DNA from: Erysipelotrichaceae bacterium
GTDB lineage: Bacteria; Bacillota_I; Bacilli_A; Erysipelotrichales; Erysipelotrichaceae
DNA: 35,305 nt
Assembly (NCBI GenBank): GCA_030694975.1
Contig: JAUYTU010000002.1
Span: 1 to 35,305, forward strand
Direction: 5' to 3'
Translations under genes and position numbers: made by a program
The notes under the pieces: generated by a model
Databases searched by the model: none
The model's input: the letters and a program-made list of their open reading frames with translations, nothing else
What the model was told of the DNA's origin: nothing
Shown here: positions 125 to 15,600 of the stretch, one piece after another
How the letters are laid out: each line of letters opens with the position of its first letter
Numbering within the stretch: position 1 is the first letter of the stretch

Positions 125-1300
125 CTACCTCATTTTGGAAAGATCGAAATTACAGTTATTTTTTTCGAGATGAAAGATGATTCTAACCAAGCGTTTTGCT
201 ACATGAGAGAGCGCAACACGATGGTGTTTGCCTTCATTGCGTTTCTTAAGATAAAAATCGTAAAGAACCGGGTTATGAATAAGCAAAGACACGGCAACAT
301 TCATGAGTGCTTGTCGAAGATAAGGAGAGCCATATTTAACCATGTACCCCTTAGTTTCAACGCTACCGGACTGATGCCGTGAAGGTTCGAGACCTGCGAA
401 GGCCAAAAGTTGATCCGCTGAATCGAATCGTTCGAAAGGAGCATATTCGGCGAAAATACAGGCTGCGGATTGAATGCCAATCCCCTTGATTGAGTGGATG
501 TGGGTGTGAACTTGAAGGAATTCATCCGTAATACAGTTCTCAACGGTTTCAACTTGAGTTTGAGCAAAATGATAAGCATCCAAAGCGAGTTGTAATTGAA
601 GAGTCAGGATAGAATCCTCGAAACCAACCGTGTTTTTGGCTAATTGCTTGAGCTCAATAAATTTCGCATAGGATAAGGTCCTTCTAAGCTGCGAACTAAT
701 CTTTGTGTAAGACTCTTGGTTCATGCGTGCCATCTTCGATGGGGTTCCATAGTGATCCAGAAAATACATACAGGTCTTAGAAGTCAGAGAGTTTTTAAAA
801 AAAGGCTTGAATTCAGGGAATATCCGGTCAAGAACGTTTGTGAGTGTAACCAATTGAAGCGAACGATGCTTCACGAGCGAATCACGGGACCGGGTTAGTG
901 ATTTTAGATTCTTAATGTGATAGGATTTGTTTGGATAGGGTTTGAACTCCACGGAAGCTGTATACCCGGCAAGGCGTTTGGCATCTACTTTGTCGGTCTT
1001 GGTTTTACGAAGTGTGGTAGCTTGAGAGAACCGTTTGACCAACATTGGATTGAATTCCATGAATGAAAATCCATGAGATTCAAGAAAGACCTTGAGATTC
1101 ATGCCGTAGTGGCCCGTCGCTTCAAACCCTATCCTTATTGCTTGAGCAAGTTCGAGCTGGCTGAGAACCTCGAGTAAGAATGTGAATCCTGATCGATCGT
1201 TGGCGAACGAAAAGGAATCGCGGATGACCTCACCATGATGATCCATGATGAAGCAGTCGTGTTTGCGTTTGGCAATATCAATGCCAACAAAATATGTCAT
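125..1300 (-). CDS. IS110-family transposase (DEDD)
   Basis: Recombinase that moves an IS110-type insertion sequence. The N-terminal RuvC-like domain shows the four acidic residues at the expected spacing: D8 in VGIDIAK, E60 in GFEATGHYG, then D103 and D106 in KTDKVDAKRLA. The C-terminal half holds the Transposase_20 region (IKGIGIQSAA, then FAGLEPSRHQSGS, then GSPYLRQALMNVA), which carries the nucleophilic serine in this family. At 391 aa the gene looks complete. I chose the ATG at 1300, not an in-frame one 14 codons upstream, because a GGAGGTG ribosome binding site sits just before it and the family begins at MxxxVGIDI. The exact IS ends cannot be fixed because IS110 elements lack long terminal inverted repeats. 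Confidence 0.93.
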   Translation of the reverse strand: MTYFVGIDIAKRKHDCFIMDHHGEVIRDSFSFANDRSGFTFLLEVLSQLELAQAIRIGFEATGHYGMNLKVFLESHGFSFMEFNPMLVKRFSQATTLRKTKTDKVDAKRLAGYTASVEFKPYPNKSYHIKNLKSLTRSRDSLVKHRSLQLVTLTNVLDRIFPEFKPFFKNSLTSKTCMYFLDHYGTPSKMARMNQESYTKISSQLRRTLSYAKFIELKQLAKNTVGFEDSILTLQLQLALDAYHFAQTQVETVENCITDEFLQVHTHIHSIKGIGIQSAACIFAEYAPFERFDSADQLLAFAGLEPSRHQSGSVETKGYMVKYGSPYLRQALMNVAVSLLIHNPVLYDFYLKKRNEGKHHRVALSHVAKRLVRIIFHLEKNNCNFDLSKMR

Positions 1301-1540
1301 GCGACACCTCCGAAAGTAGTGCACTGTTTGTTTAAACCACAACGTGTTCTCTTGATGTCATTTCGCTGTTTATCAAACGTCAAGCGTTCATCAACTTTAT
1401 CAACATTTAAAAAGAACTGTGGTAGGCATTTCTCCTCAACAGTCAAGCTGTACAAATGAAACACAAATCCACAGTGCATAGTTTAAGCATAACGCATTGG
1501 CCGTGCAGTATGCTCAAAAAAGATTAGGCTAGAAAGGAAT
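1301..1540 (-). ncRNA. Candidate IS110 bridge RNA / left-end noncoding region
   Basis: This roughly 240-base gene-free stretch lies upstream of the transposase, between it and the ROK kinase promoter. In IS110-group elements the noncoding segment 5' of the transposase encodes the bridge RNA that pairs with donor and target DNA. I see an 8-base inverted repeat, TGCACTGT at 1320-1327 against ACAGTGCA at 1471-1478, which could close a structured RNA. I could not define the loops or the element end. The call rests on family knowledge and position, not on a recognised fold. Confidence 0.4.
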
Positions 1541-7591: not shown

Positions 7592-7614
7592 TAAATTAGA
7601 AGGAGGTGAAAGAT

Positions 7615-8139
7615 ATGGAGCGATTAAATCAGAAAGCATTGGATACCATTACCGATATCGTTGCCCGTCATAACGGTCGTTTAGGACCGGTCAAACTGAT
7701 GTTGCACGATGTTCAGCACGAATTGGGGTATATTCCTTTTGAAGCGATGGAAAAGATTTCGCAAGCCACCGGAGCATCGGTTGCGGAAGTTTATGGAGTC
7801 GTAACTTTTTATACCCAATTTACCCTCGAGCCGAAAGGTAAGCATGTTATCAACATTTGTATGGGTACGGCTTGCTATGTAAAAGGTGCACAAGAACTGT
7901 TGAACCGCGTCGTCGAACTGACGAAAGCACCGGTCAACGGAACCAGTGAAGACAAAGTGTTTTCCGTGGATGCAACCCGTTGTTTAGGAGCCTGCGGTTT
8001 AGCGCCGGTTGCGATCATTGACGGTCGTGTTTACGGTAATGCCACACAATCAAAAATGGTAGAAGAGTTCATCCGGTTTGTTGTCGAGCAAGAAACCAAA
8101 ACCAAACGTGAAGAGCGTTTAAGCGAGGTGGTGTCATGA
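7615..8139 (+). CDS. hndA: NAD(P)-dependent hydrogenase subunit HndA (NuoE-like, [2Fe-2S])
   Basis: Thioredoxin-fold [2Fe-2S] subunit that relays electrons in the multimeric hydrogenase, related to the 24-kDa subunit of complex I. Cluster ligands are C82 and C87 (CMGTAC) and C123 and C127 (CLGAC). The N-terminal helical part (LMLHDVQHELGYIP, then VYGVVTFYTQF) is typical. I chose ATG 7615 over an in-frame GTG at 7606, because that GTG overlaps the AGGAGGTG ribosome binding site. The next gene overlaps by ATGA. Its partner subunits hndB, hndC and hndD lie 3.5 kb downstream beyond six accessory genes, an unusual split. Confidence 0.93.
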   Translation: MERLNQKALDTITDIVARHNGRLGPVKLMLHDVQHELGYIPFEAMEKISQATGASVAEVYGVVTFYTQFTLEPKGKHVINICMGTACYVKGAQELLNRVVELTKAPVNGTSEDKVFSVDATRCLGACGLAPVAIIDGRVYGNATQSKMVEEFIRFVVEQETKTKREERLSEVVS

Positions 8140-8498
8140 CATTAAAGAAAATTTTGGAGTTATTGAAGGCGGATTCTTTGTGTATCAGTGATTCTCAATG
8201 CATGGAACGGAACTTTGAACACATTTCCGCGACTGATTTGATGAGCGATGCTTTGGCACTGGTTCAAAGTGACAGTGAAAAAACCATATTGGTTACCGGT
8301 TTGGTTCATGCACAATCGTTACGGACGGCTGAGATGCTTGACATCAATGTGGTGATTTATGTGCGGGGTAAGACCATGAGTGAGACGGATTATAACCTGG
8401 CAAAAGAAATGGGTATGAACGTATTTACGACCAAATCATCGATGTATGATACGTGCGGTATTCTTTACAGCAATGGTCTGCTTACGGCCGTCGTATAG
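8136..8498 (+). CDS. DRTGG-domain protein, first copy
   Basis: Small (120 aa) cytosolic protein resembling the DRTGG domain (PF07085), a regulatory fold also found attached to phosphotransacetylase-type and CBS-domain proteins. Recognisable stretches are SATDLMSDALALV, ILVTGLVHAQSLRTAEMLDI and VIYVRGK. It overlaps hndA by 4 bases (ATGA), so the two are probably translationally coupled. A second, shorter DRTGG protein lies three genes on. Ligand binding is plausible; the true function is unknown. Two cysteines near the N-terminus (C16 and C22) may be worth noting in this Fe-S-rich setting. Confidence 0.7.
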   Translation: MTLKKILELLKADSLCISDSQCMERNFEHISATDLMSDALALVQSDSEKTILVTGLVHAQSLRTAEMLDINVVIYVRGKTMSETDYNLAKEMGMNVFTTKSSMYDTCGILYSNGLLTAVV

Positions 8499-8500
8499 CC

Positions 8501-8917
8501 ATGATTCACCAGCATTTTAACGTAGAAAAAGAAGATTATGCCAATGCCGGACGTATTTCCAGTCAAATCAAGCAAATGCTTAAGCAGTTGGGAGTTTCCT
8601 CAGAAGTTCTTCGTCGCATCGCCATTTCGTGCTATGAAGCGGAGATTAATATGATCATACATTCGTATGGAGGTGAGGTCGTGTTAACATTATCAGCCGA
8701 AGGTAAGTGTGAATTACGGTTCTCGGACATGGGACCAGGTATTGATGACATCGAAAAAGCGATGACTCCGGGGTGGTCGACGGCGAAAGCATCAGCCCGT
8801 GAGTTTGGTTTCGGTGCCGGAATGGGACTGCCAAATATCAAACGTAATTGCGATGAATTTGATCTTGTCACATCACCGGCGGGAACGACGTTGGTCATTG
8901 GGTTTAAAGTCTTATGA
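8501..8917 (+). CDS. RsbW-like GHKL ATPase (anti-sigma-type histidine kinase fold)
   Basis: A 138-aa single-domain ATPase of the HATPase_c family, closest in style to the serine kinases RsbW and SpoIIAB. The N box is YEAEINMIIH (E46, N50), the G1 box DMGPGID (D76) and the G2 box GFGAGMGLPNIK. There is no dimerisation/histidine phosphoacceptor domain, so it is not a classical sensor kinase. I start it at the ATG two bases after the previous stop; an upstream in-frame ATG at 8453 would overlap the DRTGG gene deeply and does not match the family. The ribosome binding site is weak, so coupling to the upstream gene is likely. It overlaps the next gene by ATGA. Confidence 0.8.
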   Translation: MIHQHFNVEKEDYANAGRISSQIKQMLKQLGVSSEVLRRIAISCYEAEINMIIHSYGGEVVLTLSAEGKCELRFSDMGPGIDDIEKAMTPGWSTAKASAREFGFGAGMGLPNIKRNCDEFDLVTSPAGTTLVIGFKVL

Positions 8918-10092
8918 GTGTCATTTCTTATACATTGGAAAAATGTCAGAAGTGCATGGCTTGCATTCGGATTTGTCCGACCGAGGCACTGTCTATGCAA
9001 CAGCAACGTATTCAGATTAACCGTGAAAAGTGTATAAACTGCGGTCAATGTCTTGATGCCTGTGTGCATCAGGGCTTGCAGGCAAAAGGCAGTACGCTTG
9101 ATGATTTATTGCATTATGAGAGAAAAATCGCTATGCTTCCGCCGTCTGCCTTTGGTGAATGCCATAATCACGCGGAAATCGAGCAACTGATGCATACATT
9201 TATCGAAATGGGATTCGATGAAGTGGTGGAGCTCAGTGCGTATGAAGGGGCGATTTACGATCATGTTCAGCAGTACCGCAAGGAAAATCCGGGCGGCTAC
9301 TTAATTTCATCGTTTTGTCCGGTGGTTAACCGGCTGATCCAAATGAAATATCCCATGTTGTTATCCAATATGATTCCGTTTGAATTAACAGCGGAAATAG
9401 CGGCTAAGCGTATTCGACAACAATATGAAAATGAAAATGTAGGTATCTTTTATCTTTGTGAGTGTATTGCTAAACTGCCGTTAGGTAAGTTTCCTTATGG
9501 TAATAAACGTTCGGAAATCGATCACTGTGTTTCATTGGTTGACTTGTTTCCGAAGATTGCACGCATGCGAAATACCAATCGGTTAACGACCGACATTTGT
9601 GCAAAAGGTATATGTGCAGTTGCCTCTGAGTTGTTTGTGCAAGATGAAATGCTATCTTCGACGATTGTCGCTGACGGTTTAAAGAAGGTTCAGCTGGTCT
9701 TGGATTTAGCGGAGTTTGGTCAGTTGAAAGGTGAGCATCTGTTGTGGCTTTCCAACTGTATCAACGGTTGCATTGGCGGTAATCTGCTTTGGGGTAATCC
9801 CTTTGAAGCATCAATCAACAGTCGCAGACATTATGTGTCTGCAACTGGAGAATCCATCGCATTATCACATGAGGAGATCATTCAGGAAACGGTGATGTTC
9901 AACCGTGCCAACATGAAATCCTTGAAAGATCGAATGGCAGAGTTTACCAAAATCAATGAACAACTGGAAAAACTGCCGGGTTATGACTGTGGCGCTTGCG
10001 GCTATCCATCCTGTCGGGTCATGGCTGAAGAAATCGTCGCCGGACACTCAGTGATTGCGGATTGCAGGATCATCCACGTGAGGGAGATATAA
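8914..10092 (+). CDS. [FeFe]-hydrogenase-like Fe-S protein with degenerate H-cluster motifs
   Basis: 392-aa iron-sulfur protein. Two [4Fe-4S] ferredoxin motifs lie at the N-terminus (CQKCMACIRICP and CINCGQCLDAC). A hydrogenase large-subunit-like domain fills the middle, and a C-terminal Fe-S domain shows C-x2-C-x4-C (CGACGYPSC) plus a later cysteine. In the middle domain the four cysteines that hold the H-cluster cubane in true hydrogenases appear kept: C135 in SSFCP, C184 in CIAK, and C282 and C286 in CINGC. The proton-transfer cysteine position is F134 and the GGGQ tail of the third motif is lost. It is therefore probably not an H2-producing enzyme but a redox or H2 sensor or electron carrier. 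It sits between two DRTGG/ATPase genes. Confidence 0.85.
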   Translation: MSVISYTLEKCQKCMACIRICPTEALSMQQQRIQINREKCINCGQCLDACVHQGLQAKGSTLDDLLHYERKIAMLPPSAFGECHNHAEIEQLMHTFIEMGFDEVVELSAYEGAIYDHVQQYRKENPGGYLISSFCPVVNRLIQMKYPMLLSNMIPFELTAEIAAKRIRQQYENENVGIFYLCECIAKLPLGKFPYGNKRSEIDHCVSLVDLFPKIARMRNTNRLTTDICAKGICAVASELFVQDEMLSSTIVADGLKKVQLVLDLAEFGQLKGEHLLWLSNCINGCIGGNLLWGNPFEASINSRRHYVSATGESIALSHEEIIQETVMFNRANMKSLKDRMAEFTKINEQLEKLPGYDCGACGYPSCRVMAEEIVAGHSVIADCRIIHVREI

Positions 10093-10093
10093 A

Positions 10094-10423
10094 ATGAAAG
10101 CATCTCTTTTAATTGAAAAATACGGATTTGAAAAGTTAACGGAAGCATCGGCTGATTTTGAAATCAAACATGCTTTTATGGGTGACTTATTGAGTTGGGT
10201 CATGGGTCATGCGAAAAGTGAGGATGCCTGGATCACGATACTAGGTCATCCAAACATCATTGCGGTTGCACTTTTGCGCGAGCTGTCTTGTGTCGTGATT
10301 GCACATGGCGCACAAATCCAGCCGGAAACGATTGAAAAGGCGAATGAAGAGGATTTTTTGATCCTTAAGTCGCCGCTTTCAGCATTTGAAATTGCAAAAA
10401 TTCTGATTAGCGAAGGCGTATAA
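10094..10423 (+). CDS. DRTGG-domain protein, second copy
   Basis: 109-aa cytosolic protein like the short DRTGG proteins found beside clostridial hydrogenases. Typical stretches are FMGDLLSWVMGHAKSEDAWI, GHPNIIAVALLRELSCVVIA and the closing SAFEIAKILI. It starts two bases after the Fe-S protein stop and ends two bases before the PHP gene, so it is part of the same message. Compared with the first copy it is shorter and more conserved around DLLSxVMG. The specific ligand and role are unknown; regulation by a nucleotide or small molecule is a guess from the domain name only. Confidence 0.7.
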   Translation: MKASLLIEKYGFEKLTEASADFEIKHAFMGDLLSWVMGHAKSEDAWITILGHPNIIAVALLRELSCVVIAHGAQIQPETIEKANEEDFLILKSPLSAFEIAKILISEGV

Positions 10424-10424
10424 C

Positions 10425-11120
10425 ATGTTTGCAGACTTACATATTCATTCAGCCCTCTCGGCCTGTGCCGATGATGATATGACGCCCAACAATATTTTGA
10501 ACATGGCCATCATCAAAGGTTTGGATGTAATTGCCATCTGCGACCATAATAGCTGTAAACAGCAGCCAGCCATCGCAAAAGCTGCATTGGATAAGCCGAT
10601 TCAAGTGGTTTTCGGTGTTGAGGTGACCAGCAGCGAGGAAGTGCATGTCCTTTGTTATTTTAGCCGGTTGGCTGATTGCATGGCTTTTGACCAGTGGTTA
10701 GAATCCGTTTTGATGCCTATCGATAACAATGAAAAGTTTTTTGGAAAGCAGTTAGTCTTTGATGAGAATGATGAGATTATTGATAAAGTGAGCGTTTGTC
10801 TGTCATTTGCTACGAGTGCTTCGTTGAAAGAAGTCATCGATAATGCAGTTCAGTTGGGCGGACGCTGTGTATTTGCTCATGCAATAGGCAAAAGTCACGG
10901 AGTTATCCGTCAATTGGGATTTATTCCTGAGGATATATACGTCAGCGGTATTGAAATCATGGAGCAAAAGCATCAGATCGAACTCTCGAGGACTCATCCT
11001 CGCTTTGAAAACACGTTGTGGTTTTCAAATTCCGATGCTCATCAGCTCTTCGATATCAATGAAAAGGATTTTTATATAACAAACAATCAATGGAAAGATT
11101 TTTGGGGTGAAAAATCATGA
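10425..11120 (+). CDS. PHP-domain phosphoesterase
   Basis: 231-aa metal-dependent hydrolase of the PHP family, cytosolic. The metal-binding residues are visible in order: H6 and H8 in DLHIHSALS, D40 and H41 in CDHNS, E66 in GVEVTSS, H74 in EVHVLCYF, then the histidine of FAHAIG and the NSDAH motif near the C-terminus. PHP enzymes cleave phosphomonoesters or phosphodiesters; in this operon the substrate could be a phosphoprotein or a signalling nucleotide, which is inference. It starts one base after the DRTGG stop and overlaps the next ATPase gene by 4 bases. Confidence 0.85.
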   Translation: MFADLHIHSALSACADDDMTPNNILNMAIIKGLDVIAICDHNSCKQQPAIAKAALDKPIQVVFGVEVTSSEEVHVLCYFSRLADCMAFDQWLESVLMPIDNNEKFFGKQLVFDENDEIIDKVSVCLSFATSASLKEVIDNAVQLGGRCVFAHAIGKSHGVIRQLGFIPEDIYVSGIEIMEQKHQIELSRTHPRFENTLWFSNSDAHQLFDINEKDFYITNNQWKDFWGEKS

Positions 11121-11707
11121 TGCAAGAACTAGCTATGCATATATTAGACATCGTACACAACTCCATCCGGGCTGAAGCAAATTTGATTACGGTCAATGTG
11201 TTTTGTAAGAAAAGTGAAGATATTTGCGGATTTTCGGTCATTGATAATGGAATTGGGATGCGCGCCGATGTATTGGATAAGGTCTTGGACCCATTCTTCA
11301 CTACGCGCACGACTCGAAAGTTCGGTTTGGGGCTGCCTCTGTTAAAAATGACATGTACGATGTGTGACGGAGAATTCTCAATCACATCCTCACCATGGCA
11401 AAAGACTGAGGTCATTGCCAAAATGAAGCGAAGTCATTTGGATACGCCGCCTTGGGGAGATTTGGCACAAACGTGGATGGAATGTTTCCACGGATTTCCC
11501 GCGGGGCGTTTGATATTTAATTTCGACTTTGATGATCACAAAGTTGTCGTTGACAGTGATGAGATCATCAATACCATCGGAGATCGTGAGCTATGCTACG
11601 ATTCTGCGGTGCTGATTCAATTAAGAGATTATGTAGCTGATCAAATAACACCATATTTAAGGGAGGAAAGTTATGAAATCATTGAGCGATTTACAGCGCA
11701 TTCGTGA
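11117..11707 (+). CDS. GHKL ATPase, second copy
   Basis: 196-aa protein with an N-terminal HATPase_c domain: N box HILDIVHNSIRAEA (N15), G1 box VIDNGIGM (D43), an FFTTR segment and G2-like FGLGLPLLK. As with the first ATPase there is no phosphoaccepting histidine domain. The C-terminal 80 residues (from about PPWGDLAQTW) are an extra domain I do not recognise, possibly for dimerisation or partner binding. Two adjacent ATGs could serve as start; GGGGTGA precedes both. The coding end overlaps the start of hndB by 35 bases, linking this regulatory gene to the hydrogenase subunit genes. Confidence 0.8.
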   Translation: MMQELAMHILDIVHNSIRAEANLITVNVFCKKSEDICGFSVIDNGIGMRADVLDKVLDPFFTTRTTRKFGLGLPLLKMTCTMCDGEFSITSSPWQKTEVIAKMKRSHLDTPPWGDLAQTWMECFHGFPAGRLIFNFDFDDHKVVVDSDEIINTIGDRELCYDSAVLIQLRDYVADQITPYLREESYEIIERFTAHS

Positions 11708-12044
11708 TGAAGCAAAAAAACGCGTAAGCATGCGCGAAGGGAATCAAGAATATCGTATCGTCGTCGGTATGGCTACCTGTGGGATTGCCGCGGGTGCACG
11801 TCCGGTATTAACAACGCTGGTTGAAGAAGCAGCGAAAAACAATTATCCGGTGACTGTTACACAGACCGGATGTATCGGTATGTGCACACTGGAACCGATC
11901 GTAGAAGTTTTTGGTCCGCAAGGCGATAAAACAACGTATGTTTTGGTTGACTCGAAGAAGGCCGTTGAAATTTTAGAAGAGCACATTGGTAAAGGCAAAG
12001 TTAAATCTGAGTACACCGTCGGCGCTTCGGGCGTGGCTTTATGA
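11673..12044 (+). CDS. hndB: NAD(P)-dependent hydrogenase subunit HndB ([2Fe-2S] thioredoxin-like)
   Basis: 123-aa ferredoxin of the thioredoxin-like [2Fe-2S] family, the small subunit of Hnd-type hydrogenases. Cysteines are at VGMATCGIAAGA and TGCIGMC, matching the family; only three are visible, which is my reading of the usual HndB pattern. A strong GGGAGGAAAG site sets the start, inside the end of the preceding ATPase gene. It overlaps hndC by ATGA. It should pass electrons between the flavin subunit and the hydrogenase subunit. Confidence 0.88.
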   Translation: MKSLSDLQRIRDEAKKRVSMREGNQEYRIVVGMATCGIAAGARPVLTTLVEEAAKNNYPVTVTQTGCIGMCTLEPIVEVFGPQGDKTTYVLVDSKKAVEILEEHIGKGKVKSEYTVGASGVAL

Positions 12045-13840
12045 TGGAACGTGTCCACGTTTTAGTCTGTGCGGGTACAGGGTGTACCTCATCTCAGTCC
12101 GATGTCATTGTTGAAAAGTTTCGCAGTTACGTCCGTCAGTTTGATCTTCAAGAAGAAGTAAAGGTCATCAAGACCGGATGTTTCGGTTTGTGTCAAAAAG
12201 GACCGATCGTCGCCATTCATCCGGATAAGACATTTTACTGTCACGTAACACCTGCGGATGTTGAAGAAATCGTAGTTGAACATTTATATAAAGGCCGGCC
12301 GGTCAAGCGTCTGGAACTTTCGGATATCGATGAAGAGACGAAGGAAAAAGTATTTGATATCGATAAAATTCGTTTCTATGCCAAGCAAATGCGTATTGCA
12401 CTCAAAAACTGTGGTGTCATAAATCCTGAAGATATCGATGAATACATAGCTCAGGACGGTTATATGGCCTTGGGTAAAGTTCTGGAATCGATGTCGCCTC
12501 AACAAGTCATAGATGAAATCAAGAAGTCCGGATTACGCGGTCGTGGCGGCGGTGGTTTTCCGACGGGATTGAAGTGGCAATTTGCCGCAAATCAGCCCAA
12601 AGGCCAAAAATATGTTATCTGTAATGCGGACGAAGGTGATCCGGGTGCATTTATGGACCGTTCCATCTTGGAAGGTGATCCGCACGCCGTCTTGGAAGCG
12701 ATGTCGATTGCCGGATATGCCATCGGTGCCAATCATGGCTATGTTTACATTCGTGCAGAGTATCCGATTGCGGTTGAACGATTAGAAATCGCCATTGGAC
12801 AAGCTAAGAATTATGGTTTGTTAGGCAAAAAGATCCTTGGTTCTAAATTTGATTTTGATATTGAAATCCGCTTGGGTGCCGGAGCTTTTGTATGCGGTGA
12901 AGAAACCGCATTGATTGCTTCGATTGAAGGTAAGCGCGGCATGCCCATGCCGAAACCGCCGTTTCCGGCGATTAGCGGTGTATGGGGCAAACCGACGATC
13001 ATTAACAATGTCGAAACGTTTGCCAATGTACCGATCATATTGTTAAAAGGTTCGGATTGGTTTGCGTCCATTGGTACGGAGAAGTCCAAGGGTACCAAAG
13101 TATTTGCCTTGGGTGGAAAAATTGTTAATACCGGATTAGTAGAAATCCCGATGGGAACGACACTTCGCGAAGTTATTTATGAAATCGGCGGCGGTTGTCC
13201 GGGGAATAAGAATTTTAAAGCAGTACAAACCGGCGGTCCATCCGGGGGTTGTCTGACAGAAAACGATTTGGACACACCGATCGATTTTGATAGTCTGGTT
13301 GCACTAGGCTCAATGATGGGCTCAGGTGGGATGATCGTTTTAGATGAAGATAACTGTATCGTTGACGTTGCCCGATTCTACATGGACTTTATCGTAGATG
13401 AATCTTGTGGTAAATGTACGCCTTGTCGGGTGGGTACGAAACGCCTTCTTGAAATGTTGAATGATGTTTGTGAGGGTAGGGGTTCGTTACAGACATTGCA
13501 CGACATGGAAGATTTGGCTCATAAGATTAAGGATACATCGCTTTGTGGCTTGGGTCAGACGGCACCAAACCCGGTTCTGTCAACCTTACGTTTGTTTAGA
13601 GATGAGTATTTGGCACACGTAGTCAAAAAGAAATGTCCTTCAGGTGTATGTAAATCCTTATTGACGTATTCTATTATTACCGATAAGTGCCGCAAATGTT
13701 CACTTTGTGCAAAACAATGTCCGACCGGCGCAATTTCCGGGGTACCTGGAAAAGAACCGTATGTCATCGATGCGAGCAAGTGTATAAAATGCGGTGCCTG
13801 TATGACGGCTTGTCGTTTTGACGCTGTTGTACGGGTTTAG
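12041..13840 (+). CDS. hndC: NAD(P)-dependent hydrogenase flavoprotein subunit HndC (NuoF-like)
   Basis: 599-aa NAD(H)/FMN-binding subunit and the presumed electron-bifurcating centre. Domains in order: N-terminal thioredoxin-like [2Fe-2S] domain (CAGTGCTSS and TGCFGLC), FMN/NADH-binding NuoF core (GLRGRGGGGFPTGLKW, CNADEGDPGAFMDR, GAGAFVCGEETAL), SLBB region (NTGLVEIPMGTTLREVI), [4Fe-4S] domain (ESCGKCTPCRVGTKRLLEM), and a C-terminal ferredoxin domain with two [4Fe-4S] motifs (CRKCSLCAKQCP and CIKCGACMTAC). This is the full HymB/HndC layout. Start overlaps hndB by 4 bases. Confidence 0.95.
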   Translation: MMERVHVLVCAGTGCTSSQSDVIVEKFRSYVRQFDLQEEVKVIKTGCFGLCQKGPIVAIHPDKTFYCHVTPADVEEIVVEHLYKGRPVKRLELSDIDEETKEKVFDIDKIRFYAKQMRIALKNCGVINPEDIDEYIAQDGYMALGKVLESMSPQQVIDEIKKSGLRGRGGGGFPTGLKWQFAANQPKGQKYVICNADEGDPGAFMDRSILEGDPHAVLEAMSIAGYAIGANHGYVYIRAEYPIAVERLEIAIGQAKNYGLLGKKILGSKFDFDIEIRLGAGAFVCGEETALIASIEGKRGMPMPKPPFPAISGVWGKPTIINNVETFANVPIILLKGSDWFASIGTEKSKGTKVFALGGKIVNTGLVEIPMGTTLREVIYEIGGGCPGNKNFKAVQTGGPSGGCLTENDLDTPIDFDSLVALGSMMGSGGMIVLDEDNCIVDVARFYMDFIVDESCGKCTPCRVGTKRLLEMLNDVCEGRGSLQTLHDMEDLAHKIKDTSLCGLGQTAPNPVLSTLRLFRDEYLAHVVKKKCPSGVCKSLLTYSIITDKCRKCSLCAKQCPTGAISGVPGKEPYVIDASKCIKCGACMTACRFDAVVRV

Positions 13841-13851
13841 GAGGTAAGACA

Positions 13852-15600
13852 ATGATTAACTTAAAAATTAACAATATTCCGGTAACTGTCGATCCGGGGG
13901 CAACCATACTAACGGCGGCGGCAAAAGCCGGGATCAATATTCCGACCTTGTGCTATTTAAAGGACTGCACAGAAACCGGTGCATGCCGTGTCTGTACAGT
14001 CGAAGTCAAAGGTTCTCGTACGTTGGGGGCAGCCTGTGTCTATCCGGTTACCGAAGGTATGGAAGTCTATACGCACTCTGCACGGGCCATTGAAGCAAGA
14101 AAGAACACTGTGAGCCTGATTCTGTCGAATCACTCCAAGGACTGCTTGTCTTGTATCCGTAATCAAAACTGTGAATTACAGTCACTTTCGGACAGTTTAG
14201 GTATTCGTGATGTGAAGTATCAAGGTGAAAAAACCGCAATCACCTACGATGATGTCGCTTTCGGAATCGTCCGTGACACTTCGAAATGTATTTTGTGCGG
14301 TCGATGCATTGAAACATGCAAAAACGTACAGGGTCTGGGAATTTTGGGGTATATGGACCGTGGTTTTAAAACCAAAGTCGGACCGGTTTTGGATAAGAGC
14401 TTTGCGAATGTTAATTGTATGCAATGCGGTCAGTGTATCAATGTGTGTCCGGTCGGTGCATTATCTGAAAAAGAAGAAATTCATGAAGTCGTTCAGGCGT
14501 TGAGCGATCCGAAAAAGCATGTGGTCGTTCAAACAGCGCCGGCCATTCGGGCGTCATTAGGGGAAGAGTTTGGAATGCCGATCGGTTCAAGAGTGACCGG
14601 TAAGATGGTTGCGGCCTTGCGTCGGATCGGTTTTGCGAAAGTATATGATACCAACTATGCGGCGGATTTGACGATCATGGAAGAAGGAACGGAATTCTTG
14701 CATCGCTTTGCGCAAAAGGGGACCTTACCGATGATTACCTCGTGTTCACCGGGTTGGGTACGCTATCTGGAATTTGAATATCCAGATCTGATACCGAATT
14801 TATCTACCTGTAAATCTCCGCACATGATGTTTGGGGCGATTTTGAAATCGTATTATGCTCAAACCAAAAACATCAATCCGAAGGATATCTATGTCGTATC
14901 GATTATGCCTTGTATTGCGAAAAAAGAAGAAAAAGAACGCAGGGAAATGATTAAGAATGAAATTAAAGATGTTGATGCTGTATTAACAACGCGCGAGCTT
15001 GGTCGTTTGATCAAATTGTACGGTATTGATTTTGCTTATCTTGAGGATGAAGAGTACGATCAGGACATGTTTGGCGAGTACTCCGGTGCCGGTGCGATCT
15101 TCGGTGTTACCGGAGGCGTTATGGAAGCCGCGTTACGTACCGTTTATGTCAAATTGACTAACAAGGAATTGGATGATGTGAAGTTTGAAGCGGTTCGTGG
15201 GATTCATGGTCTGAAAGAAGCAACCATCACCATTGATAATGTTGATATTAGAGTAGCCGTTGCCCACAGTATGACCATAGCTAAACCATTGCTTGATGAT
15301 ATCCGTAACGGAAAATCACCATATCATTTCATTGAAATCATGGGCTGCCCGGGTGGTTGTATCAATGGCGGTGGTCAATCAATTGTCAATGCAAGCATCC
15401 GTAATAAGTTTCCTAACAATCAATGGCTCAAACTGCGTGCGAAAGCTATCTATGCTGAAGATGAAGCGCGTCCGGTTCGTCAATCCCACAAGAACACTCA
15501 GATCTTAGCCCTGTATGAGAATTTCTTGCACGAACCATGCGGTCATGTTTCACATAAGCTGTTACACACGCATTACACACCAAGAAAAAGATTTAAATAA
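13852..15600 (+). CDS. hndD: [FeFe] hydrogenase catalytic subunit HndD/HydA
   Basis: 582-aa catalytic subunit making or oxidising H2. Domains: N-terminal [2Fe-2S] (CYLKDCTETGACRVC), His-ligated [4Fe-4S] (HSKDCLSCIRNQNC), two [4Fe-4S] (CILCGRCIETC and CMQCGQCINVC), then the H-cluster domain with L1 ITSCSPGW (C298), L2 MPCIAKKEE (C354) and L3 MGCPGGCINGGGQ (C499, C503), and a small-subunit-like C-terminus. L1 has serine S299 where clostridial CpI has a cubane-ligating cysteine; an extra cysteine, C320, lies in NLSTCKSP. Ribosome binding site AGGAGG precedes the ATG. Maturases are not in the window. Confidence 0.96.
   Translation: MINLKINNIPVTVDPGATILTAAAKAGINIPTLCYLKDCTETGACRVCTVEVKGSRTLGAACVYPVTEGMEVYTHSARAIEARKNTVSLILSNHSKDCLSCIRNQNCELQSLSDSLGIRDVKYQGEKTAITYDDVAFGIVRDTSKCILCGRCIETCKNVQGLGILGYMDRGFKTKVGPVLDKSFANVNCMQCGQCINVCPVGALSEKEEIHEVVQALSDPKKHVVVQTAPAIRASLGEEFGMPIGSRVTGKMVAALRRIGFAKVYDTNYAADLTIMEEGTEFLHRFAQKGTLPMITSCSPGWVRYLEFEYPDLIPNLSTCKSPHMMFGAILKSYYAQTKNINPKDIYVVSIMPCIAKKEEKERREMIKNEIKDVDAVLTTRELGRLIKLYGIDFAYLEDEEYDQDMFGEYSGAGAIFGVTGGVMEAALRTVYVKLTNKELDDVKFEAVRGIHGLKEATITIDNVDIRVAVAHSMTIAKPLLDDIRNGKSPYHFIEIMGCPGGCINGGGQSIVNASIRNKFPNNQWLKLRAKAIYAEDEARPVRQSHKNTQILALYENFLHEPCGHVSHKLLHTHYTPRKRFK

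Follow-up and report, generated by a model that had tools for sequence, protein, structure and literature searches.

A derived group D [FeFe]-hydrogenase-like protein in a HydABCD operon of Erysipelotrichaceae, probably a non-turnover sensor

The window analysed here is a stretch of 35,305 nucleotides from an Erysipelotrichaceae bacterium (GCA_030694975.1, contig JAUYTU010000002.1, positions 1 to 35,305 of the forward strand). It carries ten genes in the order hydC, a gene of 120 aa, a SpoIIAB-like HATPase gene, hydS, a DRTGG gene, a PHP gene, a kinase-type HATPase gene, hydD, hydB, and hydA (Table 1). Several start/stop overlaps were observed among these genes, and the ATG of the hydS-like gene overlaps the stop of the gene preceding it. 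The product of the 8136 gene gave no BLAST match to that of the 10094 gene; hence, its designation as a DRTGG gene is by position only. HydA and its relatives carry the L1 motif TSCSPGW, in which Ser replaces the cubane ligand C300 of CpI. This natural variant is known, as the motif also occurs in HydA1 of Acetobacterium woodii, a hydrogenase of solved structure (7q4v). At 125-1342 (-), an ORF resembles an IS110-family transposase by reading only.

Table 1 Genes of the hyd operon and features of the HydS-like protein.
Feature	Position	Strand	Basis
HydC / NuoE-like thioredoxin-fold [2Fe-2S] subunit	7606..8139	+	PF01257 8e-41
Cassette gene 1, 120 aa, "DRTGG1" by position only	8136..8498	+	no Pfam match; conserved beside HATPase1
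Cassette gene 2, SpoIIAB/RsbW-like HATPase (anti-sigma-kinase type)	8501..8917	+	PF13581 1.6e-10; TIGR01925 4e-12, below cut-off
HydS-like protein, 392 aa: two [4Fe-4S] ferredoxin motifs, H-domain, C-terminal Fe-S domain	8914..10092	+	Pfam, translation, AF2 model
Two N-terminal [4Fe-4S] motifs: C11, C14, C17, C21 and C40, C43, C46, C50	8944..9063	+	Pfam Fer4; invariant in 28 relatives
F134 at CpI C299 position; C135 at CpI ligand C300 position	9313..9318	+	alignment to CpI
C182-E183-C184-I-A-K187 at CpI M353, P354, ligand C355, K358 positions	9457..9474	+	alignment to CpI
F241 at TamHydS proton relay E252 position	9634..9636	+	alignment, needs gaps here
W278 (TamHydS E289), S280 (CpI M497), ligands C282/C286 (C499, C503)	9745..9771	+	alignments
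C-terminal D-C-x2-C-x4-C-x16-C; Asp precedes first and last Cys (D358/C359, D383/C384)	9985..10065	+	PF04060; published M2e motif
Cassette gene 4, DRTGG-domain protein	10094..10423	+	PF07085 4.6e-5, just under Pfam cut-off
Cassette gene 5, PHP-domain phosphoesterase-like protein	10425..11120	+	PF02811 2.2e-9
Cassette gene 6, histidine-kinase-type HATPase without kinase phospho-acceptor domain	11117..11707	+	PF02518 4.8e-13
HydD, 2Fe-2S ferredoxin-like	11673..12044	+	profile matches
HydB / NuoF-like flavin subunit	12041..13840	+	PF01512 4e-48
HydA, group A6 NADH-dependent [FeFe]-hydrogenase catalytic subunit	13852..15600	+	NF040763 877 bits vs cut-off 765; intact active site

In the HydS-like protein, Pfam matched Fe_hyd_lg_C to residues 81-289 (E 4.2e-13), two Fer4 motifs to the N-terminal part, and PF04060 to residues 354-385, in agreement with the two ferredoxin motifs and the C-terminal Fe-S domain that an earlier note on this DNA had described. 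The last Cys is located 8 residues before the C-terminus, and no PAS domain follows the C-terminal cluster. Structure prediction, which the same note had proposed as a check, gave a hydrogenase fold. The AF2 model built from 28 sequences showed a pLDDT of 89.6 and a pTM of 0.85, superseding a weaker model from 13 rows (pLDDT 77). Residues 1-333 of the model were superposed on CpI (4xdc) with a Z of 29.5 over 324 residues, and the comparison with apo CbA5H gave a Z of 31.5 over 320 residues. Furthermore, the best 50 Foldseek matches of the model were [FeFe]-hydrogenase chains, one of which was from a CO2 reductase hydrogenase subunit.

The alignment to CpI bore out the assignment of C135, C184, C282, and C286 as the four cubane ligands, which correspond to C300, C355, C499, and C503, respectively. 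These four cysteines were invariant among the 28 aligned relatives, as were the eight ferredoxin cysteines. The replacement of the proton-transfer cysteine by F134 (C299 of CpI), the missing glutamate of the second motif (L2; no equivalent of E361), and the loss of the GGGQ tail had likewise been recognized correctly. These losses, which had prompted the note, are ordinary features of group D, because the canonical group D sequence L070, taken from a plasmid record, also has no L2 glutamate and no GGGQ, with Ala at the C299 position. Sensing, one of the options raised in the note, is what published work leads one to expect of this lineage (PMC8163306). The listed departures themselves do not set the protein apart.

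A maximum-likelihood tree of 79 H-domains placed the HydS-like protein with canonical group D (support 100/100) and outside groups A, B, and C. Group D was represented in the tree by two canonical rows, L070 and L071 (Parabacteroides distasonis), which stood in for TamHydS of Thermoanaerobacter mathranii, the latter sequence being left out. In 2020, Land et al. reported TamHydS as M2e/group D (PMC8163306). They describe two [4Fe-4S] motifs at its N-terminus, an H-domain that lacks C299, the motif Cx2Cx4Cx16C at its C-terminus, and the absence of a PAS domain; its gene lies together with that of a bifurcating hydrogenase of group A. An Asp precedes the first and the last C-terminal Cys of TamHydS (PMC13104023). 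The window protein has all of these motifs together with the four cubane cysteines of the H-domain, and it resembles TamHydS (PMC8163306, PMC10407848, PMC13104023) in domain order, in the lack of C299 (Phe in place of the Ala usual in group D) and of a PAS domain, in the Asp residues flanking the C-terminal cysteines, and in having both an HATPase gene and a bifurcating hydrogenase of group A encoded alongside. Judged from its sequence, the HydS-like protein belongs to the putatively sensory [FeFe]-hydrogenases of group D (M2e), within a branch specific to Bacilli. Since it departs from group D in features reported to be conserved, as described below, we regard it as a derived variant rather than a canonical member.

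Membership in group C (M2f) was rejected. The TmHydS-type proteins of that group share the two N-terminal clusters, the H-domain, the C-terminal Cys motif, and the lack of GGGQ, whereas the window protein has no PAS domain after the C-terminal cluster and lies on a separate branch of the tree. Two group C-like, PAS-containing hydrogenases of relatives (L061 2278-3948 and L059 376-2049) carry a CC pair in L1 (ETCCP), which gives Cys at the C299 position, unlike TmHydS. Group A was also rejected, as the tree separates the protein from it and C299, E279, S319, and GGGQ are all missing. HydA from this operon, a group A6 protein of the A. woodii HydA1 type, shares the H-domain and the cubane-binding frame; unlike the HydS-like protein, it retains C299, the proton path, M353, K358, and GGGQ.

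The proton path of group D has been reported as E252-E289-S249-D265, and the E252V variant of TamHydS retains <0.01% of H2 oxidation (PMC10407848). The window protein has neither E252 nor E289, the corresponding residues being F241 and W278. At the E252 position, where the alignment needs gaps, Glu was found in none of the 26 Bacilli relatives and was present in both L070 and L071. Glu at the E289 position was kept by five relatives of the families f12 and f19 and by one of f1, as well as by L070 and L071. Thus, by its aligned residues, the HydS-like protein has lost both known proton routes, that through C299 and that through E252/E289. The L071 protein keeps the equivalents of E252 and E289, with Phe at the C299 position. 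The P354 position was occupied by Glu (E183) in all aligned Bacilli relatives (n = 28), whereas CpI, L070, and L071 have Pro. The M353 position, Ser or Thr in group D, was mostly Cys in the Bacilli relatives (C182 here, in place of S191 of TamHydS), Ser in some, including G002 of the same genus and those of f12/f19, and Ala in one. Further differences from TamHydS were Phe for A137, S280 for L291, and S27/Q29 for the conserved R30/R32, the last assigned by analogy with L070. K187, at the K358 position, was conserved throughout the subclade of the window. The tree supports the Bacilli subclade at 100/97 and the part containing the window at 98/99. In the sister subclade (L050-L054, f12 and f19), Asn was found for K358 and His or Gln for C299, with E289 kept.

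The HydS-like gene is clearly under purifying selection, with a dN/dS of approximately 0.03-0.06 within the genus. This value and the invariance of all cluster cysteines led us to reject a decaying pseudogene; they also indicate that the four-cysteine pattern, invariant in the 28 aligned relatives, is not due to chance. For the same pair of genomes, non-synonymous change was 0.086 in HydS vs 0.037 in HydA. This approximately twofold faster change would fit relaxed constraint as well. No relatives of the HydS-like protein were found in viral contigs.

The six cassette genes and HydABCD recurred together, with little or no change of order, at nearly every one of the 31 loci examined, given sufficient flanking sequence. 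The locus of L070 also has all six cassette genes, with the second HATPase gene on the hydABC side. In P. distasonis (L071 5167-8938), the six-gene cassette is present and hydABC is absent within the 13 kb examined; the cassette thus forms a separate unit, which accompanies group D proteins. For the surroundings of TamHydS, Land et al. name no more than an HATPase and an AraC regulator (PMC8163306), and our literature search, with most subscription papers outside its range, found no paper linking a hydrogenase with DRTGG and PHP proteins. Cassette gene 2 is similar to the partner-switching kinases SpoIIAB/RsbW, and the likeness extends to this one partner only; unlike those systems, the cassette has no gene for an anti-anti-sigma or sigma factor, and no response regulator was found among its genes.

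The maturation proteins HydE, HydF, and HydG are encoded in one cluster in the genome of the window, all scoring above the NCBIfam cut-offs. A second A-type HydA (~594 aa; G000:C24:118642-119544) is encoded in this genome away from the operon. Among the 34 genomes with the hydS-like gene, HydF and HydG were found together in six, and HydF with a HydE-like gene in G055 alone. Both HydF and HydG were absent from the remaining 27 by the NCBIfam models and by profiles built from Bacilli (for example, G002, G008, G011, G029, G048, G139, G196, and G201). The completeness of 23 of these 27 genomes was at least 90%, and one is a single contig of 3.0 Mb. The sensitivity of the search seems adequate, since the NCBIfam model for HydG recovers this protein from families of the class that are only distantly related; divergent HydG or HydF was found neither with the Bacilli-specific profiles nor at the operon loci. 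The HydA proteins examined from genomes without HydEFG keep C299, the proton path, M353, K358, M497, and GGGQ (GGGM in one), and several of these genomes hold further group A, B, or C genes, some having up to five [FeFe] genes. With HydA complete at its active site in these genomes, the absence of HydEFG becomes a weaker argument that HydS lacks an H-cluster. No statement of [FeFe]-hydrogenases without HydEFG was found in our literature search with the phrasings used, most subscription papers lying outside it.

Taken together, the retention of the four cluster sites, the loss of both proton routes, and the attached regulatory cassette best support the reading that this derived group D protein is a non-turnover H2 or redox sensor regulating the adjacent HydABCD through the cassette partners, to which we assign a probability of about 0.68. 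Because neither known route by which protons reach the active site is left, the protein probably regulates the neighbouring hydrogenase rather than acting as an enzyme. We infer the sensing role, the signal, the roles of the partners, and the output as follows. H2 or the redox state of the ferredoxin/HydABC pool would alter the state of the cluster chain of HydS, which comprises the H-site and the two N-terminal [4Fe-4S] clusters. The resulting change in shape would be passed to the SpoIIAB-like and kinase-type ATPases, the DRTGG protein, and the PHP protein, and these partners may then adjust the expression or activity of the bifurcating HydABCD from the same operon. The electron exchange through the C-terminal cluster proposed in the earlier note is weakened by data on TamHydS, in which H2 does not reduce this cluster and activity hardly changes when it is disrupted; a part of the cluster in signalling was likewise not supported for TamHydS (PMC13104023).

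The choice posed by that note, between a cubane alone and an H-cluster used for sensing, proved to be the right question, and we give the two similar weight. Both are finer versions of the non-turnover sensor and compatible with it. For the first, C135, C184, C282, and C286 would hold a plain [4Fe-4S] cluster without a [2Fe] unit, and the protein would sense the cellular redox state and not H2. The lost relay of either known type, the change of P354 to Glu in all Bacilli relatives, the Asn for K358 in the sister f12/f19, and the lack of HydF and HydG in 27 of 34 genomes, found with two different profiles for each, argue against an H-cluster and for this version. K187 of the window's own subclade and the HydE, HydF, and HydG of its genome favour the H-cluster, and the complete [2Fe] pocket and proton path of HydA in the HydEFG-less genomes also count against the cubane alone; we consider this version plausible at somewhat less than even odds. 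The second, a TamHydS-like H-cluster sensing H2, would have its proton path re-routed through E183 and/or C182, which adjoin the ligand C184 and would take over from E252 the part of first proton acceptor, with very slow turnover serving sensing only. The invariance of E183 in the 28 relatives although E252 and mostly E289 are lost points to this version, as do K187 and HydEFG, whereas some relatives have Ser or Ala in place of C182 and an onward proton path from E183 is not known; its chances appear comparable, a little short of one in two.

A non-sensory structural or electron-transfer subunit of HydABCD, retained for its ferredoxin clusters, would account for the invariant eight cysteines and for the constant co-occurrence with HydABCD in the Bacilli loci, but the P. 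distasonis cassette, with hydABC absent in the flanks examined, makes it improbable. Moreover, to our knowledge, the solved HydABC complexes (7P5H, 8A6T, and 7Q4V) contain no such subunit. A catalytic hydrogenase with useful H2 turnover, to which the H-domain fold and all four cubane ligands might point, is very improbable, as both known proton pathways are missing and even TamHydS, which is better equipped, evolves H2 about a thousand-fold more slowly than group A enzymes (PMC11803613).

A further possibility, which we regard as unlikely, is that in this Bacilli subclade the hydrogenase fold has become a cubane-only redox sensor never carrying the di-iron unit, while the wider operon, including the intact HydA, persists without recognizable HydEFG. 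If true, HydABCD would have a non-hydrogenase role, or a maturation route not known to date would exist. A distinct and more pointed question comes from the maturases, namely how an intact HydA would be matured without HydEFG. Most of what is known of group D comes from one enzyme; the conserved six-gene cassette names likely signalling partners of the kind sought by the authors of the TamHydS studies. With the published relay gone and the cluster cysteines kept, the Bacilli subclade is a natural experiment that can separate H2 turnover from sensing.
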